Shown here piece by piece: positions 29,658 to 64,000 of a DNA stretch of 64,000 nucleotides (position 1 is the stretch's first letter; each line of letters begins with the position of its first letter). Made by a program: the position numbers and the translations under genes. The notes beneath the pieces were generated by a model, which was not told where the DNA came from, did not search any database, and saw only the letters and a list, made by a program, of their open reading frames with translations. The stretch comes from Burkholderia sp. GAS332. Lineage in GTDB: Bacteria; Pseudomonadota; Gammaproteobacteria; Burkholderiales; Burkholderiaceae. The stretch spans positions 186,001 through 250,000 of the forward strand of contig FSRV01000002.1 of assembly GCA_900142905.1 (NCBI GenBank), in the 5' to 3' direction.

Positions 29658-30926
29658 ATGTTGAACACAATTTCGATCATAGGCCTTGGGTACATCGGCC
29701 TGCCCACGGCCACACTATTTGCTTCCCGCAAGTTGCGTGTAATCGGTGTCGATGTGTCACCTCGCGTGGTCGATACCATCAATCGTGGGATGATCCACAT
29801 TATCGAACCCGAACTGGACATCCTTGTCCGGGCAGCGGTAGGTGCCGGCTACCTGCGAGCGACAACTTGCGTTGAACCCGCCGACGCTTTCGTGATTGCT
29901 GTGCCGACGCCCTTGACGACCGAGCGCAGGCCCGATTTGAGTTACGTCGAATCGGCGGCCAAGACGATCGCGGCAGTATTGAAGAAAGGCAATCTGGTCG
30001 TTCTTGAATCGACCTCGTCCGTTGGCACAACTGAGTTGTTATCTAGGTGGATGGCGGAAATCCGGCCGGATCTCACTTTCCCGCATCAGGCAGGCGATGC
30101 GTCTGATATTCGCGTCGCGCACTGCCCCGAACGAGTTCTTCCCGGCAGCATCGTGCATGAACTGGTTGCCAATGATCGCGTCATTGGTGGCATGACCCCG
30201 AGGTGTTCCCAAGCCGCGATCGCCCTCTACAGTATGGTTGTGCAGGGTGACTGCATCGTCACGGACGTGCGGACGGCTGAAATGTGCAAGCTGAGTGAGA
30301 ATAGCTTTCGCGATGTCAACGTGGCGTTCGCCAACGAGCTTTCGATGATCTGCGACACGCAGGGGATCGATGTGTGGGAGCTCATCAAACTGGCTAACCT
30401 GCATCCCCGCGTCAATATCCTGCAGCCGGGTTGTGGCGTGGGCGGGCACTGTATTGCGGTCGATCCCTGGTTTATTGTGGATAGCGCGCCTGACGACGCG
30501 AAGTTGATTCGTGCCGCACGTGTAGTCAATGACTCGAAGCCTGGCTGGGTCGTTCGGAAGGTCGGCGACGCCATAGCAGATCTTGTCGACACGGGTTTTG
30601 CTATTAAAGACGTTCGCATCGCGTGTCTGGGCATTACTTACAAAGCCGACATTGACGATCTGCGAGAAAGTCCCGCGCTCCAGATTACTCGAACATTGGC
30701 AAATTGCTACGGACGCAAAGTGTTAGTCGTCGAGCCCAACCTTCAGACCTTGTCCGATGAGTTAATCGCGACCCAAGCGAGCTTGGTGACCTTGGACGAG
30801 GCAGTCGCGCGGGCGAACATATTGGTTTTGCTCGTGGATCACGCCGAATTTAGAAACGTGCGACCGGAGCTCGATGACCGGCAACGGCTTATCGATACTC
30901 GCGGTACCTGGAAGGCTAAAAAATGA
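29658..30926 (+). CDS. wecC: UDP-N-acetyl-D-mannosamine dehydrogenase (WecC-like)
   Basis: A 422-residue nucleotide-sugar dehydrogenase, start at MLNTISIIGLGYIGLPTATL, because the frame upstream belongs to the wecB remnant. Seen: the NAD-binding GLGYIGLP, VPTPLTTERRPDLSYVESA, the catalytic LSENSFRDVNVAFANELS Lys-analogue/Asn region, GCGVGGHCIAVDPWF with the catalytic Cys, and the C-terminal GITYKADIDDLRESPAL. It oxidises UDP-ManNAc to UDP-ManNAcA. Its usual substrate supplier WecB is dead just upstream, so it needs an epimerase from elsewhere or has no substrate. Confidence 0.8.
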   Translation: MLNTISIIGLGYIGLPTATLFASRKLRVIGVDVSPRVVDTINRGMIHIIEPELDILVRAAVGAGYLRATTCVEPADAFVIAVPTPLTTERRPDLSYVESAAKTIAAVLKKGNLVVLESTSSVGTTELLSRWMAEIRPDLTFPHQAGDASDIRVAHCPERVLPGSIVHELVANDRVIGGMTPRCSQAAIALYSMVVQGDCIVTDVRTAEMCKLSENSFRDVNVAFANELSMICDTQGIDVWELIKLANLHPRVNILQPGCGVGGHCIAVDPWFIVDSAPDDAKLIRAARVVNDSKPGWVVRKVGDAIADLVDTGFAIKDVRIACLGITYKADIDDLRESPALQITRTLANCYGRKVLVVEPNLQTLSDELIATQASLVTLDEAVARANILVLLVDHAEFRNVRPELDDRQRLIDTRGTWKAKK

Positions 30927-33900
30927 TGACTAACCGGAAAGAGATAGCCGACCCCCAAGCCAGTCTCAAAGATCTGGAAAAGGAAAATCAGTTGCTGCTT
31001 CTCCAGCTTCATGAGGTGCAGGAGCAACTGGAGGTCTACTATCTGCGCAACAAGGATCGCGAACGCGCAGTGGTAACTAATCCTACGATCCCCCCTTTGC
31101 CGGACAGGGAGCGGGACGATGAAGATCTGATTAAGGCCCTGATCGAAAGCCGTCGGCTGACTACACTGGTGAAGGTTCAGCAGGAAGTCCACGAGCTTCA
31201 AACGCAAAACACGTTGAATGCAAAGCTGGGCGATCTGCTTATTGCAAGTGCTGATTCGCCCAAAGCATTTCTGATGCTGCCCGGTAAGCTTGGGAAGATT
31301 TGGCGTACCTATAGCAAACAGACGCCGCCAGTGTCATTGGGAGGCGAAGGGTTCGACAAGGTCTTGTCCGCGTACGGCGAAGGCGGTTTCGACGCGGTCG
31401 AGAAATTGATGCGCGAGACAGTGATCTCACCCGCAATGCAGGCCAATGGCTATACCGCTTTGGGGAGATACGTGCAGCACAGCGATTGTTCAAACGCAGC
31501 TGAAGCAGCGCGCCGTGCCTATAGGCTAGACCCAAAGCCTTACAGACTGAAATGGCTGGCCTTCAGGCTTCATGAGGCCGGCAATGTGATTGAAGCGGAG
31601 GCCATGCTGGCGACCTTGCCCGCAGATATACAGTTTAGCGATTCTGAAGATCGTCAGGCTGTCCGCTTACGGTACGAAGCAAGTCTTGCTCTGCGGGACG
31701 AAGTGAAGAAGCTGGCATCGATTTCTGAGCGTCGTGCACAGATCGAAATGCAAATTGATGAATTGGTCCGCGCGCGCGATGAGCGGGCACAACTAGTCAT
31801 TGAACAGGTTCAGGAAATTGATGAGTTAAAGCAAACCAGGGCGCGACTGGAACGGGATAAGGTGAGCCTGGAAGGACGCTATGATGAGCTCGTCAGGCTC
31901 GTTGCGACGCGCAATCAGGAAATCGAGGCCCAGAAGCAAGCCAGCGTCCTGCTTAAGCAAGAGAATCTGGCGCTAACGCGACGCAATGATGAGGCCACCA
32001 GACTTGCTGCTTTGAGTGCTCGAGAAATCGAGTCGCAGAAACAGGCTTACTCTCGCGTTGAGCAGGAAAGATCGGACTTGGTGCTGCGATCTGAAAATGC
32101 GACCGGCAGCCTTGTCGCGCGTGATCAGGAAGTGAAAGCACTGAAGCTGGCCAAGGCACTTATCGAAAAGGAAAATCAAGCGCTGTGCGGCCAGCGTGAC
32201 GAAGTCGCGAGGTTAGTAGTTGCGCAAAATCTCGAAATTGATGCCCTGAAGCAGATCAAAGCGCAACTCGAACAGGAGCACTCGACACTTGCAAGCCGGC
32301 ATGACGAAATCGTCAAGCTTGCGACCGACCGAGCTGAGGAAATCGAAGTCCAGAAGCAGGTCAAGGCGCAACTCGAAGAGAAGAGTTCGGCGCTTTCGGG
32401 CCTGTATGAAGGAGCTACCCAACTCGCTGTTGACCGTGCTGAAGAGATCGAAGTCCTGAAGCAGGTCAAGGCGCAACTCGAAGAGAAGAGTTCGGCGCTT
32501 TCGGGCCTGTATGAAGGAGCTACCCAACTCGCTGCTGACCGTGCTGAGGAGATCGAAGTCCTGAAGCAGGTCAAGGCGCAACTCGAAGAGAAGAGTTCGG
32601 CGCTTTCGGGCCTGTATGAAGAAGCTGCCCAACTCGCTGCTGACCGTGCTGAAGAGATCGAAGTCCTGAAGCAGGTCAAAGCGCAACGCGAAGAGAAGAG
32701 TTCGGCGCTTTCGAGCCTGTATGAAGAAGCGACCCAACTCGCTGCTGACCGTGCTGAAGAGATCGAAGTCCTGAAGCAGGTCAAGGCGCAACTCGAAGAG
32801 AAGATTTCAGCGCTTTCAGGCCGGTATGAGGAAGCCTCGAAACTGGCTACCGACCGGACTGAGGAGATCCAAACCCTAAAGCAGGTTGGGGCTCAACTCG
32901 AAGAGGAGAGCTCGACATTTGCAACCTGGTATGACGAAGCCTCCCTACTTGCTGACGACCTTTCTAAGGAAATCGAAGCCCTGAAGCAGGTCAAAACGCA
33001 ACTGGAAGAGGAGAGTTCGGCGCTTGCAATTCGGCATGACGAAGCTGCTCAACTGGCCGGCGACCGGGCTCGGGAAATTGAGACCCTGAAGCAAGCCAAA
33101 GCGCAACTCGAACAGGAGCACTCGACATTTGCAAGCCGGCATGACGAAATCGTCAAGCTTGCGACCGACCGAGCTGAGGAAATCGAAGTCCAGAAGCAGG
33201 TCAAGGCGCAACTCGAAGAGAAGAGTTCGGCGCTTTCGGGCCTGTATGAAGGAGCTACCCAACTCGCTGTTGACCGTGCTGAAGAGATCGAAGTCCTGAA
33301 GCAGGTCAAGGCGCAACTCGAAGAGAAGAGTTCGGCGCTTTCGGGCCTGTATGAAGAAGCTACCCAACTCGCTGCTGACCGTGCTGAAGAGATCGAAGTC
33401 CTGAAGCAGGTCAAGGCGCAACGCGAAGAGAAGAGTTCGGCGCTTTCGGGCCTGTATGAAGAAGCGACCCAACTCGCTGCTGACCGTGCTGAAGAGATCG
33501 AAGTCCTGAAGCAGGTCAAGGCGCAACTCGAAGAGAAGATTTCAGCGCTTTCAGGCCGGTATGAGGAAGCCTCGAAACTGGCTACCGACCGGACTGAGGA
33601 GATCCAAACCCTAAAGCAGGTTGGGGCTCAACTCGAAGAGGAGAGCTCGACATTTGCAACCTGGTATGACGAAGCCTCCCTACTTGCTGACGACCTTTCT
33701 AAGGAAATCGAAGCCCTGAAGCAGGTCAAAACGCAACTGGAAGAGGAGAGTTCGGCGCTTGCAATTCGGCACGACGAAGCTGCTCAACTGGCCGGCGACC
33801 GGGTTCGGGAAATTGAGACCCTGAAGCAAGCCAAAGCGCAACTCGAACAGGAGCACTCGACACTTGCAAGCCGGCATGACGAAATCGTCAAGCTTGTGGC

Positions 33901-34171
33901 CGACCGAGCAGAGGAAATCGAAGCCCTGAAGCAGGCCAAAACGCAGCTTGAGCACGAAAAATCAGCGCTGTCGGAACGACATGACGAAACTGCCAAGCTG
34001 TCAGCGGAACATCTCAAGAAAATCAGTGCGTTGCAACTGCAAATCTGGCGCCACCAGGCGAGTGAGGTCGAAAGGGTCACTCGTCAGCAAACTATGCAAG
34101 AAGAGGTAGCGAGGGCTGAAGCACAGATCGACTTGATTAAGGAAGTGTTTCTCGGAGAGCACCGGGCATGA
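30923..34171 (+). CDS. Large repetitive coiled-coil protein of the capsule locus
   Basis: A 1082-residue cytoplasmic-looking protein, ATGA-coupled to wecC and to the next gene. Residues ~12-95 form a first coiled coil; ~100-270 is a small globular domain with TPR-like helices (YTALGRYVQHSDCSNAAEAARRAYRLDP would extend one such helix pair). Residues 306-1040 are 21 consecutive 35-residue units (five heptads each) of the type KAQLEEKSSALSGLYEGATQ. An ~840-bp block of eight units is repeated almost identically as a seven-unit block. No signal peptide. It may be a scaffold or length ruler for the glycosyltransferases or exporter; this is inference from location and shape. Confidence 0.7.
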   Translation: MMTNRKEIADPQASLKDLEKENQLLLLQLHEVQEQLEVYYLRNKDRERAVVTNPTIPPLPDRERDDEDLIKALIESRRLTTLVKVQQEVHELQTQNTLNAKLGDLLIASADSPKAFLMLPGKLGKIWRTYSKQTPPVSLGGEGFDKVLSAYGEGGFDAVEKLMRETVISPAMQANGYTALGRYVQHSDCSNAAEAARRAYRLDPKPYRLKWLAFRLHEAGNVIEAEAMLATLPADIQFSDSEDRQAVRLRYEASLALRDEVKKLASISERRAQIEMQIDELVRARDERAQLVIEQVQEIDELKQTRARLERDKVSLEGRYDELVRLVATRNQEIEAQKQASVLLKQENLALTRRNDEATRLAALSAREIESQKQAYSRVEQERSDLVLRSENATGSLVARDQEVKALKLAKALIEKENQALCGQRDEVARLVVAQNLEIDALKQIKAQLEQEHSTLASRHDEIVKLATDRAEEIEVQKQVKAQLEEKSSALSGLYEGATQLAVDRAEEIEVLKQVKAQLEEKSSALSGLYEGATQLAADRAEEIEVLKQVKAQLEEKSSALSGLYEEAAQLAADRAEEIEVLKQVKAQREEKSSALSSLYEEATQLAADRAEEIEVLKQVKAQLEEKISALSGRYEEASKLATDRTEEIQTLKQVGAQLEEESSTFATWYDEASLLADDLSKEIEALKQVKTQLEEESSALAIRHDEAAQLAGDRAREIETLKQAKAQLEQEHSTFASRHDEIVKLATDRAEEIEVQKQVKAQLEEKSSALSGLYEGATQLAVDRAEEIEVLKQVKAQLEEKSSALSGLYEEATQLAADRAEEIEVLKQVKAQREEKSSALSGLYEEATQLAADRAEEIEVLKQVKAQLEEKISALSGRYEEASKLATDRTEEIQTLKQVGAQLEEESSTFATWYDEASLLADDLSKEIEALKQVKTQLEEESSALAIRHDEAAQLAGDRVREIETLKQAKAQLEQEHSTLASRHDEIVKLVADRAEEIEALKQAKTQLEHEKSALSERHDETAKLSAEHLKKISALQLQIWRHQASEVERVTRQQTMQEEVARAEAQIDLIKEVFLGEHRA
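31838..34042 (+). repeat. 21 tandem 105-bp repeats with a nested 735/840-bp block duplication
   Basis: The 105-bp unit encodes 35 residues. Four diverged units come first (31838-32257), then block A with eight units (32258-33097), block B with seven units (33098-33832) and two closing units. Blocks A and B are nearly identical at DNA level apart from one missing unit and a few base changes, so the duplication is recent and prone to slippage or recombination. Confidence 0.85.
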
Positions 34172-53776: not shown

Positions 53777-54162
53777 GCAGGAACCCCGGAAGACCTCGTT
53801 GTTTAGTTTTGGCCTTGTTTTATGGGCGCGCTTGGGGGAAAGTGGGTTGGTCGTTGGTGCGCAAGCGCCGACGCCAATGGTAAGAAAACACAGTCGTTCG
53901 GTCAAGCTTTCTGACCACAATTTGTGTCGGCAGTGCGTCGAATTGTCCTTCATCTTAGGGGGCGTTTCGATCATGCGACGGTTCCATGCGGTCGCTCTGT
54001 TGGTCCCGAGGCAAAGGTAATGCTAGTGGCGCAATCGTTTTAACGCATCGCGTGTCAAACGGCGCAAGTGAGTACCTCCACACCTGAAGACTCAGGTAGA
54101 AAAAGGGGCGCGGCCGATGGGAGTGCTAGCGGCATCGGAACCCAAACCCAAACCTGACCCGC
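53777..54162. other. Gap, nothing recognised
   Basis: 386 bp upstream of the small hypothetical gene and beyond the 3' end of the exporter gene; no supported gene or clear hairpin terminator found. Confidence 0.4.
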
Positions 54163-55803
54163 TTAAAGCGCATTACTCCGCGGCGGAAGCGTCTCGGCTT
54201 GCGACGGGGCTCCGTCGGGCACCCACTCCGCCTCCGGATAGCTAATCCGCACCGGCGGCACAAACCACGCAAGACACAACCCGATCAACGCAGCCGCGCC
54301 GGCCACCAGAATCCCAATATGAATCGACTGCACAAGCGCATCCCGCGCAGAATTCATCATCGCATCGCCCGCATGTCCCGCGCTCACCAGACGATTGATC
54401 AACGCCGCCTGCTCCGCGCGGTCCACCAGCAGCTCAGGACTTGCGAACGACTTGAACCACTGCGTCGCCTGATACGAGGCGAGCGAGCGATGCACCCCTT
54501 GCGTATAGAGATGCCCGAGCAACGCACCGGTCATCACCGTGCCGAGCATCCCACCGAACGTGCGAAGCGATTGCAGCAGCGCAGTTGCCGCACCGAGCTG
54601 ATCACGCGCGACGATCTGCTGCGAACAGACCGTCAGACTGGTCGCCACCAGACCGAGTCCAAGACCGCTGATCCCCATGCACGACATCCACACCAAATGC
54701 GGCTCAGTACCTCTAAGCACGATCACGCTCAAACACGCCAGCGCGGACAGCGCGAAACCGACATACATGATGCCGTTCGCGCGACGGATTCGTGTGACGA
54801 TACGATTGTTCACCACGCTACCGACAGTGGTGCCGAGCAGCAGCGGCGTGATCAGCATGCCCGAGTCATGCGCGGACATCGCATAGCCGCCCTGGAACAA
54901 CAGCGGCACATAAAACACCAGTGAAAACAGGGCGAAACCGCCGAGTACCGACATCGCGAAGAGCGCGGAGAGCTTGCGGTTCAACAGCATATCCACTGGA
55001 ATGATCGGATACTTGATCCTCCGCTCCCAAAGCCAGAGCGTTAGCGTAAAACTCCCCGCAACGACGGCCAGCACGATCGTTATCGTGTCGACGCCGTACT
55101 TCGGAAACAATTCGATCAGCAGTTGCAGCGAGCCGAACGTGACGGCGAGCACGAATGCCCCGAGCCAGTCGAGCCGCACGGGACCCTTGTGCCGCAGATG
55201 GAGCAGCGGTGGTAGAAAGCGCTGCACGAACAGCAGCGACACCAGGCCGACCGGTACGTTGACGAAAAACACCAGCCGCCAGCCGCCGTATTGCGTGAGG
55301 ATGCCCCCGAGCGTCGGCCCGACCATATTGGCGATGCCGAACGCGGACGTGACGAACACGAGCCAGCGCAGCCGCAGCTTCGGATTGGGGAACAGATCGG
55401 CGACGGTGGCGAACACCGTGCCGATCAGAATGCCGCCGCCTATCCCCTGCAGGCCGCGCGAAATCACCAGCAAGAGCATGCTGGTGGCGAGGCCGCACAA
55501 TACCGAAGAGCCGGTAAACAATAGAATGGCGGCGATCAGAAACGGCTTGCGGCCGAACAGATCCCCCAGCCGCCCGAAGATCGGAATGGTGATCACCGAA
55601 GCCAGCATGTACGCTGTCGCGACCCATGCGTATAGATCGAAGCCCTTCAGATCGGCGACGATGCGCGGCAGCGCCGTGCCGACGATAGTCTGATCGAGCG
55701 CCACCAGCATCGAGACGAAGGCAATGCCAAGCATCGCCAGCAGCGACTCGCGAAACGGCAGCAGTTGTCCGCTGGGTGGAGGCGTGTCGAGACTGGGCGG
55801 CAT
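54163..55803 (-). CDS. DHA2-family (EmrB/QacA) multidrug MFS exporter
   Basis: A 546-residue protein with about 14 hydrophobic segments. The start at 55803 (MPPSLDTPPPSGQLLPFRES) is used; an upstream in-frame ATG would add 19 polar residues. DHA2 motifs: ALDQTIVGTALPRIVADLKG in helix 1, GRLGDLFGRKPFLIAAILLF (motif A), and GGGILIGTVFATVADLFPNP with the motif-C-like GPTLGGILTQYGGWRLVFFV in helix 5. It should export drugs or toxic compounds with proton exchange. It follows the DUF3303 gene by 31 bp and may be co-transcribed with it. Confidence 0.85.
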   Translation of the reverse strand: MPPSLDTPPPSGQLLPFRESLLAMLGIAFVSMLVALDQTIVGTALPRIVADLKGFDLYAWVATAYMLASVITIPIFGRLGDLFGRKPFLIAAILLFTGSSVLCGLATSMLLLVISRGLQGIGGGILIGTVFATVADLFPNPKLRLRWLVFVTSAFGIANMVGPTLGGILTQYGGWRLVFFVNVPVGLVSLLFVQRFLPPLLHLRHKGPVRLDWLGAFVLAVTFGSLQLLIELFPKYGVDTITIVLAVVAGSFTLTLWLWERRIKYPIIPVDMLLNRKLSALFAMSVLGGFALFSLVFYVPLLFQGGYAMSAHDSGMLITPLLLGTTVGSVVNNRIVTRIRRANGIMYVGFALSALACLSVIVLRGTEPHLVWMSCMGISGLGLGLVATSLTVCSQQIVARDQLGAATALLQSLRTFGGMLGTVMTGALLGHLYTQGVHRSLASYQATQWFKSFASPELLVDRAEQAALINRLVSAGHAGDAMMNSARDALVQSIHIGILVAGAAALIGLCLAWFVPPVRISYPEAEWVPDGAPSQAETLPPRSNAL

Positions 55804-55834
55804 CACGGTCCTATTTGCGGTCTTATTGGTGTAC

Positions 55835-56119
55835 TTACTTGCGCGCGGCCTGACGCGCACCCAATGCCGCGCCGAGGTCCTCGTCCGTCATCGCGGGGAC
55901 GATGCTCATCGTCAGTAAATCGCCCCATTCGAGCGCCAGCGCCGACAGTCCGCGCGAATCGTCCGCCTCGACAATCGCAACGCCATGCAATCCGCCGATC
56001 GCGTGCCAGCGCCCCAGCATTGTGACACCCTCCGGCGACTGGCCGCCGGTTTTCATGAAGCGCTCGATGACGGCATTTTCCGCCGTTGGCAGGCCCTTCC
56101 ATTGCACGATGAATTTCAT
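55835..56119 (-). CDS. DUF3303-family protein
   Basis: A 94-residue protein, MKFIVQWKGLPTAENAVIER as the start, then GRWHAIGGLHGVAIVEADDS and a closing EWGDLLTMSIVPAMTDEDLG. This small ferredoxin-like alpha/beta layout with the GRWH segment is the DUF3303 pattern. Function unknown. It immediately precedes the multidrug exporter on the same strand. Confidence 0.7.
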   Translation of the reverse strand: MKFIVQWKGLPTAENAVIERFMKTGGQSPEGVTMLGRWHAIGGLHGVAIVEADDSRGLSALALEWGDLLTMSIVPAMTDEDLGAALGARQAARK

Positions 56120-56598
56120 TGCATGTCTCCAATATGAATGGGCAGTGGCGGCTCGTGGCGCGCCGTCATCGCCGCTCGTGCTGCGCGACGCTTTTGTATG
56201 CCCTGCGCCGCGAACACTTCTGCGCCAGGTTGCTGTCTGGATAGCGTGTGCTATCGGTGAACGGCATAAAACCACGTGGCATCCTAAACATCATAGATGA
56301 GGGCACGATCGCTAACGTCGCCGCGTGCGGACATTCGCCAGGTCGATTGAACAATGCGTCTGCCGCCGGGGAAGCGTGGCGGGCGCGTCTGTTTCCAATT
56401 GCAGGTATCTCACGCGTCCTACTAGAGGAACCTCTTTTAGTACGGCAGCCGAAGATGTCGGTATCGATCTGGCCTGAAGTGCGCCATGCAGTGTGCCGGC
56501 ACGCATGCGAACGGCCAGCGCACAAGGCGCGTATGCATCAAACGAAAACGGCACGCGCGTTAAGCGCATGCCGTTGCTTCGAATGTTTGGGTCCGAGG
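56120..56598. other. Gap, nothing recognised
   Basis: 479 bp between DUF3303 and the third double-glycine peptide gene. No supported gene, repeat or strong hairpin was seen; it presumably contains the DUF3303/exporter promoter. Confidence 0.4.
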
Positions 56599-56826
56599 CT
56601 AGCCGCGCGGCGAATTGCGCGGCGCTGTGGCGGCGGGCACTTCGGCAATGGTCTGATGTGCCGCAGGAAAGCCCGGCGGATAGTCGACGACGCGTACGGA
56701 ACCCGGTGCCACCTGAACGGCGACGCTCGCACGCGCACCGATCCGTGCGCCGCCGACAATGGCGGCCATCGCCTGGCGGTCGAGTTCGACGCTGTCGGTG
56801 AGGTCTTTGATAACGAGCTTTGCCAT
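56599..56826 (-). CDS. Double-glycine-leader small protein, paralogue 3
   Basis: A 75-residue protein. The leader MAKLVIKDLTDSVELDRQAM ends in AAIVGG, matching the leaders of the two genes upstream. After GG the mature part is ~49 residues, Ala/Pro/Val-rich (ARASVAVQVAPGSVRVVDYP) with no Cys. Start chosen at the leader Met (56826), where all three paralogues align. Such Gly-Gly leaders direct cleavage and export by peptidase-containing ABC transporters in bacteriocin systems; no such transporter is in the window, so export is inference. Confidence 0.6.
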   Translation of the reverse strand: MAKLVIKDLTDSVELDRQAMAAIVGGARIGARASVAVQVAPGSVRVVDYPPGFPAAHQTIAEVPAATAPRNSPRG

Positions 56827-57009
56827 GGCGGCTCCAGCGATCAGGCGAGGGCGGCGGTTGGCGCGATTCTCCAGTCGCCGCCCGGGTGTGTCTTTAAGTG
56901 TGCGGAGGTCTCGTCGCACTATCAGTATAGGAAATCTGCTTGCAGCTCGTCTGTCGGATGTGACCCGGTCGCAGTAGGGAAGCCCCCGGCCCCACGCTAC
57001 CGCACGCCG

Positions 57010-57294
57010 TTAAACGTTGGCGTAGTTGGCGCCGAACAAAGACGGACTAACGTTCAAGTCCAACGGCACGAAGCCGGCGCCGATCACGCCGATGTTGTTG
57101 AGAGCGGCAACGTTGACAGTTTGTACCTGGGTGAGGTTCTGGTTCACTTTGACGCTGACGTTGGCGATGCCGCTCAGGCCGGGCATCGACGGCAGGCCGG
57201 GCACGCTGCTGCCGGTGCCGCCGGCCACCGCCGACATTGCGTGGCGGTCGAGCTCGCGGGTGCGGGACAGATCGCGAATCATGAGGGATGACAT
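57010..57294 (-). CDS. Double-glycine-leader small protein, paralogue 2
   Basis: A 94-residue protein. Leader MSSLMIRDLSRTRELDRHAM then SAVAGG; mature part ~68 residues, rich in Asn, Val, Gly, Pro and Leu without Cys (IANVSVKVNQNLTQVQTVNV, AALNNIGVIGAG). The Asn/Gln/Val pattern is reminiscent of beta-forming, possibly amyloid-like or adhesive peptides, but no family is recognised. AAAGGTG-like and GGAGAATC elements precede the ATG. Confidence 0.65.
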   Translation of the reverse strand: MSSLMIRDLSRTRELDRHAMSAVAGGTGSSVPGLPSMPGLSGIANVSVKVNQNLTQVQTVNVAALNNIGVIGAGFVPLDLNVSPSLFGANYANV

Positions 57295-57382
57295 GGTGAT
57301 TCTCCAAAGGTGCGCGGAAGACGGGCGTGATCGGGGCGAAGCGGAGATTGCCGAAGGCCTCTTCGCTTCGCCGAATCAGGCC

Positions 57383-57670
57383 TTAAACGTGGATGTTGTT
57401 GCTCGACGTGACGGAGGGATTGATCGTCGAGGTGATGCCAGTGGCGAACGCGACGTTGTTGCCGTTGGCGCTCTGGATGTTCATCTCGTTGCTGATCAAC
57501 TGCGTGGCGTCGACGTTCTTGCTGTTGTTCGGCGCGATCACGGGGCTGATGTTGACGAACGAGCTGGAGGAGTAGGGGTAGCCGTAGCCGAGGCCGCCAC
57601 GCACGGCGCGCATAGCCTTGCTGTCGAGTTGTTCGGTGATGGACAGGTCTTTGATCATCAGCGTGTTCAT
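57383..57670 (-). CDS. Double-glycine-leader small protein, paralogue 1
   Basis: A 95-residue protein. Leader MNTLMIKDLSITEQLDSKAM then RAVRGG; mature part ~69 residues opens LGYGYPYSSSSFVNISPVIA and continues Asn/Ser/Thr-rich (MNIQSANGNNVAFATGITST), no Cys. CCAGGAGATTTACC before the ATG is a good ribosome-binding site. First gene of the trio, divergent from the Ser/Thr kinase gene across a 415-bp region. Confidence 0.65.
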   Translation of the reverse strand: MNTLMIKDLSITEQLDSKAMRAVRGGLGYGYPYSSSSFVNISPVIAPNNSKNVDATQLISNEMNIQSANGNNVAFATGITSTINPSVTSSNNIHV

Positions 57671-58085
57671 GGTAAATCTCCTGGAAAGAAACATCACAGT
57701 CTTGCGGTTGGGTTCGAGCATCTTGTCTGCTCGAGTGTCACTAACGCATGGGCTGTGCCAGTTTTAATCTCATCTCCTAAGAAAGTTGGCGAAGGCTTTA
57801 CACACAAGGCTTTCGCGTCACACCAACGCGTCGAAGCCCCATTGCAGCCGCGAGCAGACAATCAGCGAGTGATGGCGCTTACCCAACAACGCACCGCATT
57901 CTGTCGGCTGTCGCAAGACACTTGCCGGCAGTGCGCGCAGCGGGGCAATCCTGGTTTGCGAAAGCGCAGGTCGGGGGCTAGTATCGAAGCGGCACATGTA
58001 ACTGGTTACGACAGGTTTTCAATCAGCCCGAGGGGCTCCGGTCGCATGCGATCCGGCCCAACGGCAGCGGCGGCGCTTCGCACAA
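57671..58085. promoter_or_regulatory. Divergent promoter region between peptide trio and kinase gene
   Basis: 415 bp with no supported gene, expected to hold promoters for both directions. No clear sigma-70 or sigma-54 match or palindrome was singled out by eye. Confidence 0.4.
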
Positions 58086-60329
58086 ATGGCTAGCCTTGCG
58101 CGTGTGATTCGCGACTATCAGAACGGCGATCTGTCACGTGACGAGTTCGTCGCTCAACTCGACAGCACGTTGACGACCGAAGGACTCGGTCCCACGCAGC
58201 TGCTGGAGATGCTCGGCGCGGCGCATCGCAGAGCCCCTCTGCCCGACGATCTCTACGCGGAAGTGCGGCGGCGCATCGAACAGCTGCGGGTCTCGAACGT
58301 GGCAGCGGGCGGCGAGGAAACCGGTATGCAGACGACCGTCGAGATACCGTCGGTACGCTCTGCGAGTGCTGCAAGCCCGGCAGGCGCGGCGAGCGCCGGC
58401 GGTGCGGCGGGACATGATCAGATCAAAGGCACTGGCGATACGCTGAACAACCGTTTCGTCCTCGAGGAGTGTCTGGGCGTCGGCGGAATGGGCACGGTGT
58501 ACAAGGCGCTCGATTTGCGCAAGCTCGAGGCGTCGGATCGCAAACCGTATGTCGCGATCAAGGTGCTCAACGTCCAGTTCCGCGGCAACCCGAATTCGCT
58601 CGTCGCGCTGCAACGCGAGGCGCGCAAGGCGCAGGTGCTCGCGCACCGCAACATCATCACGGTGTACGACTTCGACCGCGACGGACCGATCGTCTATCTG
58701 ACGATGGAGTACCTGACCGGCAAGCCGTTGAGCCAGCTATTGCGCACGCCGGGGTATAAGGGGATGCCGGTTCGCGCCGCGCTGCCGATTGTGCGCGGCA
58801 TGTGCAACGCGCTCGCCTATGCACACGAGCACGGCTTCGTGCATTGCGATTTCAAACCCGCCAACGTCTTTCTCACGACAAATGCCGAAGTGAAGGTGAT
58901 CGACTTCGGCATCGCCCGTGTTTTCCAGCGGCCCGAGGAGGAGAGCGATGCAACGGTCTTCGACCCCGGCAGTCTCGGCGCGTTGACGCCCGCGTATGCG
59001 AGTCCGGAAATGATCGAGCATCGCGAGCCGGATCCACGTGACGATATCTACGCGCTCGGTTGCATTACCTACGAGTTGTTGACGGGCCACCATCCGTTCG
59101 ATCGATTGTCGGCGACGCAGGCTCGCAATGCGCAGTTCAAGCCGCAGCGTCCGCCCAATCTCGATGCGAAACAGTGGCGCGCGTTACGGGCCGCGCTTTC
59201 GTTCGATCGCAACACGCGCATGCCGAGTGTCGCGCGTTTTATCGCGGAGTTCGACAACGAAGCGCGCGCGGAGAAGTCGGGTACCTTGGTCAAGGCGGGG
59301 TTCGCGGGTTTCGCCGTGGTGTGTGCCGCGGCAGTCGGGGTGTTTGCCTTGCGGTCGGCGCCGGATCGGCAACGTGGCACGCAGCCGGCTGCGGCGGCTT
59401 CGGAGGCGGCAGCGGATCAGGGGGCTTCGGCGGAGACGCCTGTTGCCACCGCAACGATAGCGAGTGCGTCTGGGTCACCTTCAACTGCCGGGCCGACCGC
59501 GGGGGGCACTGGAAGGCCGACCGCGGGGTCATCTGTCGGGACAACCGCAGCGCCTACCGCAGCCGCAGCCGCAGCCGCAGCCGCAGCGTCGCTCGGGGCA
59601 TCACCCCCGGTGCAACCTCCAGCGCCGCCCGTGCCGCCCGTGCCGAAACCCGCGCTGACCCTGGCCGCCGTCGCGCCGGTGCTGGCGCAGGTACCATGCT
59701 CGGCGCTGTCCGCTTCGACGCAGGACCACGCCTTGACGGTGCGCGGCTATATCTCACAGCACTACGGCGCGGCTCGGCTGAAGGACACGCTGACCGCATT
59801 GCCGGGCGTCGATACGCTGACGCTCCAGGTCGAGCCGGTCAGCGACGACAAATGCGACACGATCAAAGCGCTCGCCCCCTATTGGACCCGCAACTGGCAA
59901 GCAGGGCACCTCGCGTCGCTGCATGTGCGGCCGCCCGGCGGGCAGTTGAGCGAGGGCGATCCGCTGGTCGTCGACGTGACCACGCCTGCTTACGACTCTT
60001 ACGTGAACCTCGACTACTACCAGCTCGACGGCAGCGTCGTGCACATGGTGCCGAGCCCACGTGCGAAGGACAATCAGGCACCCCCGCACTACGCGGCCAC
60101 GATCGGCAGCGCGGGCGACTGGATTATTTCGAAGCCGTTTGGATCGGAGATGGTGGTGCTGTTGATTACACCTGCGCAGCTATTCGACAAGCCGCGGCCC
60201 GAAAGCGAATCACGTGCCGATTATCTGCGCGCACTGAATACGCGGCTCGCGCAGATCGCCGGCAAATACGGTCAGGATCATATCGTCGCGGACTTCGCGC
60301 CGATCACGACGAAGCCGCGCACACCTTAA
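58086..60329 (+). CDS. Membrane Ser/Thr protein kinase with DUF4384-like C-terminus
   Basis: A 747-residue protein. After ~115 residues of variable N-terminus, the Hanks-type kinase domain (about 123-390) shows the glycine loop GVGGMGTVYKA, Lys159 in VAIKV, the catalytic loop HCDFKPANV (Asp255; Cys instead of Arg, so a non-RD kinase), DFG as VIDFGIA, the APE-like YASPEM, and DDIYALG. A membrane helix follows (~403-422), then a long Ala/Thr/Pro/Gly linker with an Ala run, then a ~200-residue periplasmic domain (LVVDVTTPAYDSYVNLDYYQ, GSEMVVLLITPAQLF) of DUF4384 type. It should sense something outside and phosphorylate inside; PpkA-like T6SS kinases share the layout. Confidence 0.8.
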   Translation: MASLARVIRDYQNGDLSRDEFVAQLDSTLTTEGLGPTQLLEMLGAAHRRAPLPDDLYAEVRRRIEQLRVSNVAAGGEETGMQTTVEIPSVRSASAASPAGAASAGGAAGHDQIKGTGDTLNNRFVLEECLGVGGMGTVYKALDLRKLEASDRKPYVAIKVLNVQFRGNPNSLVALQREARKAQVLAHRNIITVYDFDRDGPIVYLTMEYLTGKPLSQLLRTPGYKGMPVRAALPIVRGMCNALAYAHEHGFVHCDFKPANVFLTTNAEVKVIDFGIARVFQRPEEESDATVFDPGSLGALTPAYASPEMIEHREPDPRDDIYALGCITYELLTGHHPFDRLSATQARNAQFKPQRPPNLDAKQWRALRAALSFDRNTRMPSVARFIAEFDNEARAEKSGTLVKAGFAGFAVVCAAAVGVFALRSAPDRQRGTQPAAAASEAAADQGASAETPVATATIASASGSPSTAGPTAGGTGRPTAGSSVGTTAAPTAAAAAAAAAASLGASPPVQPPAPPVPPVPKPALTLAAVAPVLAQVPCSALSASTQDHALTVRGYISQHYGAARLKDTLTALPGVDTLTLQVEPVSDDKCDTIKALAPYWTRNWQAGHLASLHVRPPGGQLSEGDPLVVDVTTPAYDSYVNLDYYQLDGSVVHMVPSPRAKDNQAPPHYAATIGSAGDWIISKPFGSEMVVLLITPAQLFDKPRPESESRADYLRALNTRLAQIAGKYGQDHIVADFAPITTKPRTP

Positions 60330-60445
60330 GCCGCACACCCCTTAAGCGGCACGCTGGGGCCGTCCGCAACCGATGAAGCACGCGCGGCCACGGAAGTGCG
60401 CGCAGCTCCGGAAGTACGCGTCCCGCCGCCCTCCCAACACCCGCA

Positions 60446-62452
60446 TTACTTAAGATCCTTGACCACCCTGAAGCCATCCTGCGACTGGCGCACGCTCGCG
60501 CTGTACTTGAAGCGTGTCGCGCTCAACATGTAGTTCCCACCTTCACGCCACGAGCCGCCGCGAATCACCCGCATGTCGCAACTGGGACTGTCCCACGCAT
60601 GGCCGTCGGCGGGTGCACCCTGGTAGGAGTTGTGCCAGCAATCGGCGACCCATTCCCAGACGCTGCCGTTCATGTCATACAGGCCGACCGGATTCGGCGC
60701 GAACGAACCGGCGGTCTCGGGCCCGTCCTTGTGCCAGGGATCACCGCAGTCCTTGCAATTGGCGTTGCCCTTGCGCATCTGATCGCCCCACCAGTATGTC
60801 GTTGTGGTGCCGCCCCGGTCCGCGTATTCCCATTCGGCCTCGGTGGGCAAGCGGTACGGTTTGCCGGTCATTTTGCTGAGCCACTTCACATACTGTTGCG
60901 CGTCGTCCCAACTGAGGTCGCGTGCCGGTGCCGCTTTGTTCGTGTTGCTTTCGGGCGTCAGCTTTTGACAGGCGTTCGCTGTGGCGCACGCATTCCATTG
61001 CTCGACGGTCACTGCGTATTTGCCGATCGCGAAGGGCGCGCCGATGGTCACGTGATGGACGGGCTTTTCGGAGGGATCGTCGGTGTTGCTGCCCATCGAG
61101 AACGCGCCCGCAGGCAAGGCGATCATGATCGGGCAGGTGGCGCAATCGCGGCTTTCTCCGGCGCCAGGTGGATGCGCCGTGGCTTTTTGTGCGATCGCCG
61201 GCGTGGAAGGGGCCGCGGGTGGGGCGGTCGTCGTAGTTGGCGTAGGCCCGGCTGCGCGCGGGTGGTCCTGCGGCACGGCGCTGGCCGGCGCGGCTGGCCG
61301 CGCGGCTTGCGGTGTCGGCGCGACCGGCGGCGCAGCAGATGACGTGGCAGAGGTCGACGCGGATGGCGCGCTCGCCGATGCCGCGGCGCGCAGCCGATCG
61401 ATACGTGCGTGTGCAAGCGCGGCGAAGCGGCCGTTCGGGTAGGCCTTTAAATAGGCTTCGTAGTCGCCCGGGTAGTTGCTGTCCTTGATGGAATTCCAGA
61501 AGGTAATTTCATACTGCTCGCTGCTGTCCTTCGGCAGGATGCCTCTGCTGCGCAGCACGACAAGTGGGTCGTCGCCGGTAGCGGATGCGAGCGGCGCAAT
61601 AACCGGGCGAGATATCGGCTCGCTCGGACTCGCGGTCTTAACAAGCGATGACGCGATCCACGGCGTTTGTTCACCGCCAGTGACCTCGCTCACCCTCGTC
61701 GCCACGCGTTGAAACAAACCCGCAAGATCCTGTGATGAATAAGCGTTGTTGAGCGCGCGCAGCAATGCATTCGTATAAACCCCGTGATACATGCCGTCCG
61801 CTGCGAAGCCACCCGGCGCCGTGGCGAAAGCGACCACGGTATAGGCGGGCAGCACGGACGCACCGAGTGTGGCGTCGTTGGAGAACGGGTTGTTCAGACA
61901 CGTATCGAGAATCACGAGATTGAGTGCGTCGGCACGCGGCGCGCGCATCGCCTGCAATACAGCATTCAAATCGACGCCCTCGCTGACCAGCCGCGCCGGC
62001 TCGCGAGCATCGAGGCCGGCGGGTACGAGCAGCGTCTGCCGTCCGACTTGCATGCCGTGCCCCGCGAAATAGAAGAGGCCAATACCGCCTGCTCGCAGAC
62101 GTTGGCGGAATTCGCTGATGGCTTGCCACATTTGCTGCGGCGTTGCATCGGTGCGCATGATGACGTCGAAGCCGTGCGCACGCAGTGTGTCGCGCATAGC
62201 TTCAGCGTCGCGCGGAGCATTGCCGCGAATCGGGGTTGCGTCATCGCCGTACGCGCCGTTGCCGATCACCAGCGCGATGCGCGCAGGCTGCGTATTGTTC
62301 TTATGCAGTGTGAGCGGCGCGATGAACGTGGCCGTCGTACGCGTAGCGGCAGCGCCATGCTCCGCACCGTCACGCTGCGCCGCGGCATAAACACTGCCCC
62401 AATGCGCCTGAATCGCCCCGGCCATGCACACCAGCAGGAATGTTCGCCACAT
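60446..62452 (-). CDS. Caspase-like (C14) peptidase fused to FGE/SUMF1-type domain
   Basis: A 668-residue protein. The start at 62452 gives a signal peptide ([20 protein letters not shown]). The caspase-like domain (about 55-310) has [20 protein letters not shown], catalytic His132 in [11 protein letters not shown] and Cys185 in [12 protein letters not shown] middle helical region is followed by a Pro/Ala/Thr-rich linker (about 410-480) and an FGE/sulfatase-modifying-factor domain ([77 protein letters not shown]). Caspase-FGE fusions are known in bacterial signalling sets. Convergent with the kinase gene, which ends 116 bp away. Confidence 0.8.
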
Positions 62453-62844
62453 ATTCGTATCCTGTTTGTTCCGGACAGAACATAGGGTTTCGACGACCGC
62501 GACGCCCGCGTCAGCCGTTGGAGTGGACCGAGCGCAGCATCGATGCCGCCTTCGACTCTCCATCGACAACCTATGAACAACGATAGCACGCAGTTCGCGC
62601 GCCACAACTGTCCGCGCATCGTCAACGCGGTATTCGGTTAACGAGCGTGGCGTATCTTTTTGTCAAGTTACGGCCTAAGCTAATTCACAAAGTAAGGCAG
62701 TACGGCCGTTTTAGTAATGCGGCCGCTCATCCACGTGAACTCGCCACGTGAACCCACGTGAAATCACGCGACATCCAGCGGGAGCGTCTGGGCCGCATCT
62801 TGCGCAGCCGAGGCAGCCATGACCCCTCTTCGGGAGAGTGCGTA
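62453..62844. other. Divergent upstream region of caspase-FGE and DUF4399 genes
   Basis: 392 bp with no supported gene; it should contain promoters in both directions. CCACGTGAACTCGCCACGTGAACCCACGTG near 62732-62761 holds three CACGTGAA-type repeats about 14-16 bp apart, a possible regulator site. Confidence 0.45.
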
Positions 62845-63348
62845 ATGCGAAGAACCCTCACACGTGGCGTGCTCGACATACGTCATGGAACGAAGGCGAG
62901 TCTTGCAGCGTTCTGCACGGCTTTGTGCGCCACGCTGTCTCTCCTGTTGGGTATCGGGTTAATGTCCGAAACCGCGCTTGCCGAACAAACCCCGTCGCCG
63001 CCGGGCGCTGAGGAGTACATCATCTGGCCGCCGGATGGCGCGGTGATTCATGGCGGCAAGCTGTGGGTGCGCATGGGCCTGCGCAACATGGGCATCTGCC
63101 CGAAGGGCGTCGCGGTTCCGAACACCGGTCATCACCATCTGCTGATCGACACCGACCTGCCGCCGCTCGACCAGGAAATTCCGTCGGACCGCAATCATCT
63201 GCATTTTGGTGCGGGTGAGACCGACGCGCGCATCGAGTTGCCGCCGGGCAAGCACACCTTGCAACTCATTCTCGGCGACCACAACCACATCCCGCATGTG
63301 CCGCCCGTGTATTCGAAGAAGATCACCATCACCGTACTAAAAGACTAG
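62845..63348 (+). CDS. DUF4399 exported protein, copy 1
   Basis: A 167-residue protein; start at 62845 with GGGAGAG upstream. The first ~47 residues include a long hydrophobic export signal (FCTALCATLSLLLGIGLM) ending at ALAEQ. The DUF4399 core has PPDGAVIHGGKLWVRMGLRN, NTGHHHLLIDTDLPPLDQEI, NHLHFGAGETDARIELPPGK and a final HTLQLILGDHNHIPHVPPVY. The many conserved His (GHHH, NHLHF, HNHIPH) suggest metal binding; function unknown. Tandem with the next gene. Confidence 0.75.
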   Translation: MRRTLTRGVLDIRHGTKASLAAFCTALCATLSLLLGIGLMSETALAEQTPSPPGAEEYIIWPPDGAVIHGGKLWVRMGLRNMGICPKGVAVPNTGHHHLLIDTDLPPLDQEIPSDRNHLHFGAGETDARIELPPGKHTLQLILGDHNHIPHVPPVYSKKITITVLKD

Positions 63349-63395
63349 CGCGTCCCGTGCATGCAAAGCGGGGCCGTCAGGACGGAGAGATCAAC

Positions 63396-63830
63396 ATGTA
63401 CAGGATCATTGCGCTCGCGGCGCTCGTGACGTTGGCGTCACTGGCCTCGCCGAATCTCGCCATGGCCGGCACGACACCGTCGCCGCCCGGCGCGCACGTC
63501 TATATCGGCTATCCGAACGACGGACAGGTGGTGCCGGCCAACAAGCCGTTTCGGGTCTGGTTCGGCTTGCGCTATATGGGCGTGGCGCCGAAAGGCGTCA
63601 AGTATCCGAACACGGGGCACCACCATCTGCTGATCGACACCGACCTGCCGCCGATGGATCAGGAAATTCCAAACGACCGCAACCATCTGCATTTCGGCGC
63701 GGGCGAAACGGAAACCATGATTCAACTGCCGCCTGGCAAGCACACGTTGCAACTGCTGATGGGCGACGACATGCATATGCCGCACAACCCGCCGGTGTAC
63801 TCGAAGAAGATCACGGTCATTGCGCGGTGA
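63396..63830 (+). CDS. DUF4399 exported protein, copy 2
   Basis: A 144-residue paralogue of the preceding gene with a cleavable signal peptide (MYRIIALAALVTLASLASPN, cleaved near AMAGT). The core repeats the same His-rich blocks (NTGHHHLLIDTDLPPMDQEI; NHLHFGAGETETMIQLPPGK; MHMPHNPPVYSKKITV). GACGGAGAG precedes the start. The pair arose by tandem duplication and is probably one operon (47 bp apart). Confidence 0.75.
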   Translation: MYRIIALAALVTLASLASPNLAMAGTTPSPPGAHVYIGYPNDGQVVPANKPFRVWFGLRYMGVAPKGVKYPNTGHHHLLIDTDLPPMDQEIPNDRNHLHFGAGETETMIQLPPGKHTLQLLMGDDMHMPHNPPVYSKKITVIAR

Positions 63831-63877
63831 CGCGTTACTAGCATGAGCGGCTTTGCCGCTTCAGTGTCACGCCGCAG

Positions 63878-63902
63878 CCAACACCGTCGCGCGCGGTGTT
63901 GG
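63878..63902. terminator. Perfect 9-bp hairpin after the DUF4399 pair
   Basis: CCAACACCG and CGGTGTTGG form a perfect 9-bp stem around a 7-base GC loop, 48 bp after the last stop. No T-run follows, so it may be a weak or bidirectional terminator, or a protein site. Confidence 0.35.
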
Positions 63903-64000
63903 TTGCGATCCACCAGCTCCAATCTGTCACTGGGTAGCCGGCGCGCTGCGTCCAGCGGCTTACCGTCCCCGAAGTCCTTTATCTACGGCCATTCAGAAGA

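Follow-up and report, generated by a model that had tools for sequence, protein, structure and literature searches.

Double-glycine peptide genes and their neighbours

The window, that is, the whole 64,000-nucleotide stretch of Burkholderia sp. GAS332 DNA that was analysed (positions 1-64000, equal to positions 186001-250000 of contig C2 in a 10.4 Mb genome of three contigs), carries three small minus-strand genes, P1, P2 and P3 (Table 1), each encoding a 26-residue leader that ends in GG and a mature part free of Cys. The sizes and leaders reported for them in the first-pass annotation were reproduced. P1-P3 are not chance reading frames, because leader profiles derived solely from the peptides of other genera place them first among the 1229 stop-to-stop frames of the window. 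The class A leader profile (for the classes, see below) recovered them with E-values of 1e-15, 1.3e-11 and 3.8e-6, the next frame standing at 0.52; with the class C profile the weakest of the three scored 7e-4 and was followed by an unrelated frame at 0.012.

The flanking genes likewise agree with their earlier description as a kinase, a caspase-FGE protein and two exported proteins: the first has a Pkinase domain, the second caspase and FGE domains, and the last two are DUF4399 proteins. The transmembrane (TM) segment and outer part of the kinase, like the TM segment of the FHA protein described below, were assigned by hydropathy only, and the start of the caspase-FGE gene was chosen, by eye, at a Met that is followed by a signal-peptide-like stretch.

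Table 1. Position of the peptide genes, their neighbours, the upstream elements and the transporter (window coordinates, except where contig C2 is named).
Feature	Position	Strand	Description
P1, class C GG peptide	56602..56826	-	75 aa; short mature part of 49 residues
P2, class B GG peptide	57013..57294	-	94 aa; 68-residue mature part with VNQN..QVQ.VNVAALNNIG motif
P3, class A GG peptide	57386..57670	-	95 aa; leader (residues 1-26) MNTLMIKDLSITEQLDSKAMRAVRGG; 69-residue mature part
GAGC-N-GCTC palindrome	57714..57734	-	7-bp stem; near the expected transcript 5' end
Sigma-54 -24/-12 promoter-like site	57746..57760	-	TGGCACAGCCCATGC; 90 nt before the P3 start codon; same site precedes P4
Membrane Ser/Thr kinase	58086..60329	+	Pkinase domain; predicted TM at about residues 404-422; outer part with below-cut-off DUF4384
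Caspase (C14) + FGE protein	60446..62452	-	Start placed at a downstream Met; the listed ORF opens at 62605
DUF4399 protein a	62758..63348	+	Hydrophobic segment near the N-terminus
DUF4399 protein b	63390..63830	+	Hydrophobic N-terminal segment
C39 ABC transporter	C2:257185-260241		About 13.5 kb from P3, 7.2 kb beyond the window end

Searching the complete genome with P3 revealed a fourth peptide, P4, 73% identical to P3 and located 116 bases past the window end (C2:250116), and a weaker match, P5, at C2:269860. An alignment of the five peptides matches 920 proteins; the 120 of these that were listed come from Paraburkholderia or Burkholderia records, are named, where a name is given, hypothetical or uncharacterized, and have no precomputed Pfam domain. 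The peptides themselves gave nothing above cut-off against Pfam and NCBIfam, and no match in PHROGs.

Peptides from this genome and 20 further loci were sorted into four classes whose limits were set by our own patterns: 91 matched frames left, after exclusion of eight that could not be trimmed and one of over 150 aa, 82 classed peptides (37 A, 15 B, 14 C and 16 D), to which all class counts refer. The mature parts had been described as completely divergent, or hypervariable. They fall instead into these orthologous classes, with between-genus identities for leader and mature part of 64 and 32% in A, 50 and 45% in B, 70 and 18% in C, and 52 and 53% in D; by these values the mature parts of B and D are about as conserved as their leaders, those of A less so and those of C least, and only class C is as variable as had been claimed. 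Profile comparison indicates a weak common core in mature A, B and D (hhalign probability 41-58%, E 1e-4 to 3e-4), and gave no link of mature class C to any of them. Mature A, B and D contain 14-15% Asn and 6-7% Gln (20-22% together) at a charge near zero, and class C is Arg-rich (13.5%). Within the classed set, Cys occurs in the mature part of one of the 37 class A peptides and of none in B, C or D; class A copies of Noviherbaspirillum have more.

Substitution rates were estimated at 44 Paraburkholderia-type loci out of 80 (class A in 44, class D in 41) from pairs with dS between 0.1 and 1, a range in which the class A leader gave no pair. Median dN/dS of the mature part was 0.10 for D and 0.35 for A, which argues against an arms race on average, and one class A pair reached 1.64. 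AlphaFold predicted no fold for class A (pLDDT 68, pTM 0.30), where residues 51-95 are locally confident (80-91) yet have no assigned helix or strand, and none for class B (pLDDT 49, pTM 0.14). A fold search of the PDB with class A returned no match, and a PDB profile match to VgrG (E 0.21) was set aside as chance.

Two observations concern individual class members. Residues 20-38 of class D peptides (for example L007:7825-8109) are weakly like lactococcin G-beta, below cut-off. In an Oxalobacteraceae metagenome-assembled genome (L118:14462-15793), three near-identical class A-like leaders precede mature parts unlike those of other class A peptides, a class D gene is readable in two frames, and the same exporter operon adjoins.

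The adjoining exporter operon and its distribution

P4 is followed in the same genome by genes for an outer-membrane-factor channel (OMF), an FHA protein, an HlyD adaptor, a PpiC-type isomerase, a cNMP-C39-ABC transporter and a sigma-54 activator. The earlier statement that no bacteriocin-type ABC peptidase transporter lies next to the peptides holds inside the window only, and is wrong for the genome because the transporter operon starts just past the window end. A check for C39 peptidases over the whole genome gave six matches, of which the operon transporter, beside the peptide cluster, is the only one on C2.

The transporter combines two cNMP stretches with a C39 domain and an ABC exporter (PF03412, PF00664, PF00005). 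The Cys, His and Asp of its C39 domain align with those of PCAT1, indicating a peptidase that is intact by residues, and the fusion of such a C39 domain to an ABC exporter is the architecture of peptidase-containing ABC transporters (PCATs). The ABC exporter is accompanied by an adaptor and a channel, as in type I secretion: the channel matches outer_NodT above cut-off, and the adaptor scores below the cut-off of TIGR01843 (174.7 vs 208.65) and above those of the Pfam HlyD domains. The isomerase is TIGR04500-like, below cut-off, and has no hydrophobic N-terminus. The FHA protein has two FHA domains, then one predicted TM segment.

The leaders have the features of PCAT substrates, a double glycine with hydrophobic residues at positions -4, -7 and -12, by comparison with the accessible part of PMC6363468. 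That part describes the same three hydrophobic positions for substrates of LahT150 and places -4 and -7 among the groove-binding residues. Here position -7 is Met in 80 of the 82 classed peptides and position -4 is Val or Ile in 80 of 82; Leu at -12, Gly at -2 and Gly, Ala or Ser at -1 were demanded by the search pattern and so are not counted as evidence. Given the intact C39 residues and the agreement of leader positions -4 and -7 with the residues that bind the groove in LahT150 substrates, cleavage of the leader and export by this transporter are predicted with high confidence.

The transporter and the peptides co-occur. Both are present in 41 of 150 genomes of the family, the peptide alone in one (G147, a single weak match with E 0.0035), the transporter alone in none and neither in 108, a table that does not amount to 150 independent trials because the genomes are related by descent; joint absence is also seen within the genus of the window (G075, G085, G095, G143). 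Among the 150 peptide matches listed, out of a larger number, 138 lie within 25 kb of the transporter, eight further away on the same contig and four on other contigs. In the sample of the taxonomic class, the transporter turned up in two of 368 other genomes; each of these also encodes GG peptides, located on other contigs of fragmented assemblies.

Gene order is equally stable. The order OMF-FHA-HlyD-PpiC-C39 ABC-sigma-54 activator is identical in all 20 fetched loci, which represent seven genera; a PP2C phosphatase gene is near in all 20, the kinase in 16 and caspase-FGE in 15, the kinase being absent from the fetched stretch in the other four (L054, L055, L056, L058) and caspase-FGE in the other five. 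The full arrangement, with signs for strand, is -C -B -A2 +kinase -caspase-FGE +DUF4399 +DUF4399 +A1 +core -PP2C -D in this genome and in seven loci (L041-L045, L057, L059; in L041 and L045 class C is outside the stretch or undetected). In nine loci (L046-L053, L060) the peptide genes and kinase are placed after PP2C, D and usually an LRAT-domain gene. Among 80 named loci, taken from 245 relatives, the PpiC, ABC and sigma-54 activator genes occur in 80, OMF, FHA and HlyD in 79, DUF4399 and PP2C in 76 and caspase-FGE in 73; the 10-kb flanks of this survey mostly stop short of the class B and C genes, reached in 3 of 80. Maps were drawn for 11 of the 80 loci, without HK, RR, MFS, cyclase, UGD, patatin, HD-like and DUF3303 labels. 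Neither caspase-FGE nor DUF4399 was found in the examined stretch of the two Aromatoleum loci. Across family genomes and mapped loci, the co-occurrence with neighbouring genes proposed in the first-pass annotation is confirmed, which supports its view that the double-glycine peptides form an exported family linked to the kinase and caspase-FGE genes. Among the named carriers are P. xenovorans LB400, P. fungorum, P. graminis, Caballeronia glathei, Aromatoleum toluolicum and Noviherbaspirillum autotrophicum.

On the far side of the operon, P5 adjoins the PP2C gene, whose product is Stp1-like (214 bits vs a cut-off of 230), and an LRAT-domain gene lies next. The LRAT-domain gene beside the class D peptide (L007:8429-9049) is present in 71 of the 80 named loci; its product is a possible acyltransferase or hydrolase of the system. 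In this genome, response regulator, histidine kinase, adenylate-cyclase/AAA and patatin-like genes (L006:11706-18286) separate the sigma-54 activator from PP2C. This block is probably an insertion, and the histidine kinase, cyclase and patatin genes were dropped as system members, because nothing matching them lies in the interval from the sigma-54 gene to PP2C in the 20 mapped loci, one of which (L054) carries 3.6 kb of different content in that interval.

Sigma-54 sites and an adjoining palindrome

The sigma-54 promoter-like site was first spotted by eye in the sequence upstream of P3 and P4, which is duplicated between them, and the pattern was then tested in other loci. It precedes 33 of 37 class A and 12 of 16 class D genes, and none of the 15 class B or 14 class C genes, with control means of 0.04-0.12; its distance to the start codon is 86-98 nt in class A and 53-93 nt in class D. 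In this genome the B and C genes lie downstream of A. The sites end in ATGC, CTGC, GTGC or TTGC, and a strict pattern ending in TTGCW was found in chance numbers only. Since the pattern was set after some sites had been seen, its only independent check comes from two distant genomes, where the pattern, fixed beforehand, precedes three of the four peptide genes that resemble class A or D, one gene being cut off by a contig end and having the same leader as another. From these motif counts, transcription by sigma-54 RNA polymerase is very likely.

Directly after the site, a GAGC...GCTC palindrome is present in every one of the 33 class A genes with that site (L006, L041-L059; control mean 0.24, largest 2 of 33), a feature noticed before it was counted. 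Its offset is nearly fixed, at 12-13 in 32 cases and 9 in one, and its inner stem varies by genus; it is absent from the 12 class D genes with a sigma-54 site. Loop lengths misalign, so that a covariation count is uninformative and the element is given only as a palindrome at a near-fixed place; Rfam gave no match in window positions 54000-64000. Class A transcripts should start with the palindrome, which is possibly a 5'-UTR RNA element or a protein site.

Proposed function and alternative readings

The cluster is best explained, with a probability that we put at about 0.6 from sequence-based evidence, as a C39-type I system that exports EbfG-like matrix or surface proteins under threonine-phosphorylation control of the type VI kind. 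The class A and D genes would be transcribed by sigma-54 RNA polymerase, with the cluster's own activator as its probable driver, and the class B and C genes would be read through from A. The 26-residue leader would dock on the C39 domain of the transporter and be cut after GG, and the mature protein would exit via the HlyD adaptor and the OMF channel, with help from the cytoplasmic PpiC-type isomerase, which would probably act on the precursor. After export, A, B and D, which are neutral and rich in Asn and Gln, would most likely be small cell-surface or biofilm-matrix proteins and may polymerise like EbfG1-3 of Synechococcus. Class C, whose mature part is neither Asn/Gln-rich nor well conserved, would have a minor or accessory role. 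In response to an envelope signal, the kinase (together with the exported caspase-FGE protein), the PP2C phosphatase and the membrane FHA protein would most likely turn the exporter on and off through threonine phosphorylation, on the model of PpkA, TagR, PppA and Fha1 of the H1 type VI system.

For the exported proteins the closest precedent is EbfG1-4/PteB of Synechococcus elongatus PCC 7942, where four adjacent small GG proteins are exported and a C39 peptidase transporter is involved; EbfG1-3 form amyloid, and EbfG4 is found on the surface and in the matrix (accessible parts of PMC4997328 and PMC9981879). The likeness is one of analogy and composition, not of sequence comparison with EbfG, and, unlike the present cluster, the EbfG system is not mentioned together with a kinase/FHA/phosphatase set or sigma-54 control in the accessible parts of these papers. 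Composition, conservation, the lack of a broadly kept immunity-like ORF and the EbfG precedent point to a function outside the cell, and a role in the matrix or at the surface has roughly even odds.

The FGE domain is also a feature of TagR. A membrane kinase, a PP2C phosphatase and an FHA protein also come together in the threonine phosphorylation pathway of type VI secretion (PpkA, PppA, Fha1 and TagR; described in the accessible parts of PMC5532429 and PMC12133291). The present cluster has such a set, including an exported FGE-type protein, and resembles the pathway by domain content only. This set sits with a type I exporter, however, its FHA protein has a predicted TM segment, and no type VI core protein was found among the cluster proteins scanned. 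Because the kinase, FHA, PP2C and exported FGE genes make up the type VI threonine-phosphorylation set, control of this exporter by phosphorylation appears fairly probable. A more specific picture is offered tentatively: an envelope-sensing kinase with its exported caspase-FGE partner, the phosphatase and the membrane FHA protein would gate a nucleotide-regulated C39 exporter, and the released proteins of the four classes would assemble together, forming a fibre at the surface or in the matrix of Paraburkholderia and its relatives.

The transporter shares its cNMP-C39-ABC architecture with HetC of Nostoc PCC 7120, whose peptidase is active and which has been proposed as a signalling-peptide exporter (accessible part of PMC10986499). 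It differs from HetC in its two cNMP stretches, its operon with HlyD and OMF and its adjoining candidate substrates; ppGpp binding and a role in cell differentiation are further features of HetC. The shared cNMP domains, together with the small, basic class C, would suit a system in which at least one class is a processed extracellular signal sensed by the kinase or other sensors, the copies grading the response. However, mature parts about 40-70 residues long, divided among several classes and including two class A copies, look more structural, and no receptor was identified, so that we regard signalling as unlikely.

A GG leader, a C39 transporter and several substrates per cluster would equally be expected of class II microcin-like bacteriocins directed at related strains, several of them widening the range or acting in pairs, and 8 of 26 class D/B sequences weakly match lactococcin G-beta (best E 0.057; 13 bits for the member shown vs a cut-off of 37). 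This is nonetheless improbable: the mature parts of B and D are retained from genus to genus, those of A and D evolve on average under purifying selection, and A, B and D are neutral. No dedicated immunity gene was found when 20 ORFs of at least 35 aa around the five peptide genes, in three stretches of this genome, were compared with 20 loci; those outside the peptide genes recur in at most 6 of the 20, and the ORFs with a wide distribution overlap a peptide gene. NHLP/Nif11 bacteriocin systems resemble the cluster in joining C39-ABC and HlyD proteins to several peptides with a shared leader, but the transporter (553 vs 853 bits) and HlyD (72 vs 156 bits) fall below the NHLM cut-offs, and the 26-residue leader did not match the nitrile-hydratase and Nif11 leader models.

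Chemical modification of the mature parts before export, as in RiPPs, with the FGE or LRAT protein as a candidate enzyme, is very doubtful: FGE-like proteins include oxidases, the LRAT gene is widespread in the named loci and there are weak matches, all below cut-off, to GG RiPP leader families, but the scanned cluster proteins include no YcaO, radical SAM, lanthionine synthetase or ATP-grasp enzyme, the kinase reaches 84.8 bits against lanthionine synthetases (cut-off 650) through its kinase domain only, and the caspase-FGE protein, being apparently exported, would not meet the precursor in the cytoplasm.

The preferred reading, a phosphorylation-controlled C39-type I system for matrix or surface proteins, combines modules that are each known. 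The suggestion that this may be an undescribed secreted-peptide system stands, as a full-text search, which covered few subscription papers, found no published description of the combination; the first-pass interpretation as a whole is partly supported. Some such genes may already have been listed when Gram-negative genomes were first screened for GG peptides (Dirix 2004). If the preferred reading is true, Paraburkholderia, Caballeronia and their relatives share a widespread secretion system for which we found no name, and the type VI phosphorylation switch can control another machine. The presence of the cluster in named strains such as P. xenovorans LB400 makes it directly testable.

Elsewhere in the window, a long ORF (30923-34171) with about 14-16 copies of a 105-bp (35-aa) tandem repeat, coiled-coil-like by eye, lies inside an apparent polysaccharide synthesis and export locus (about 25-52 kb, also by eye).
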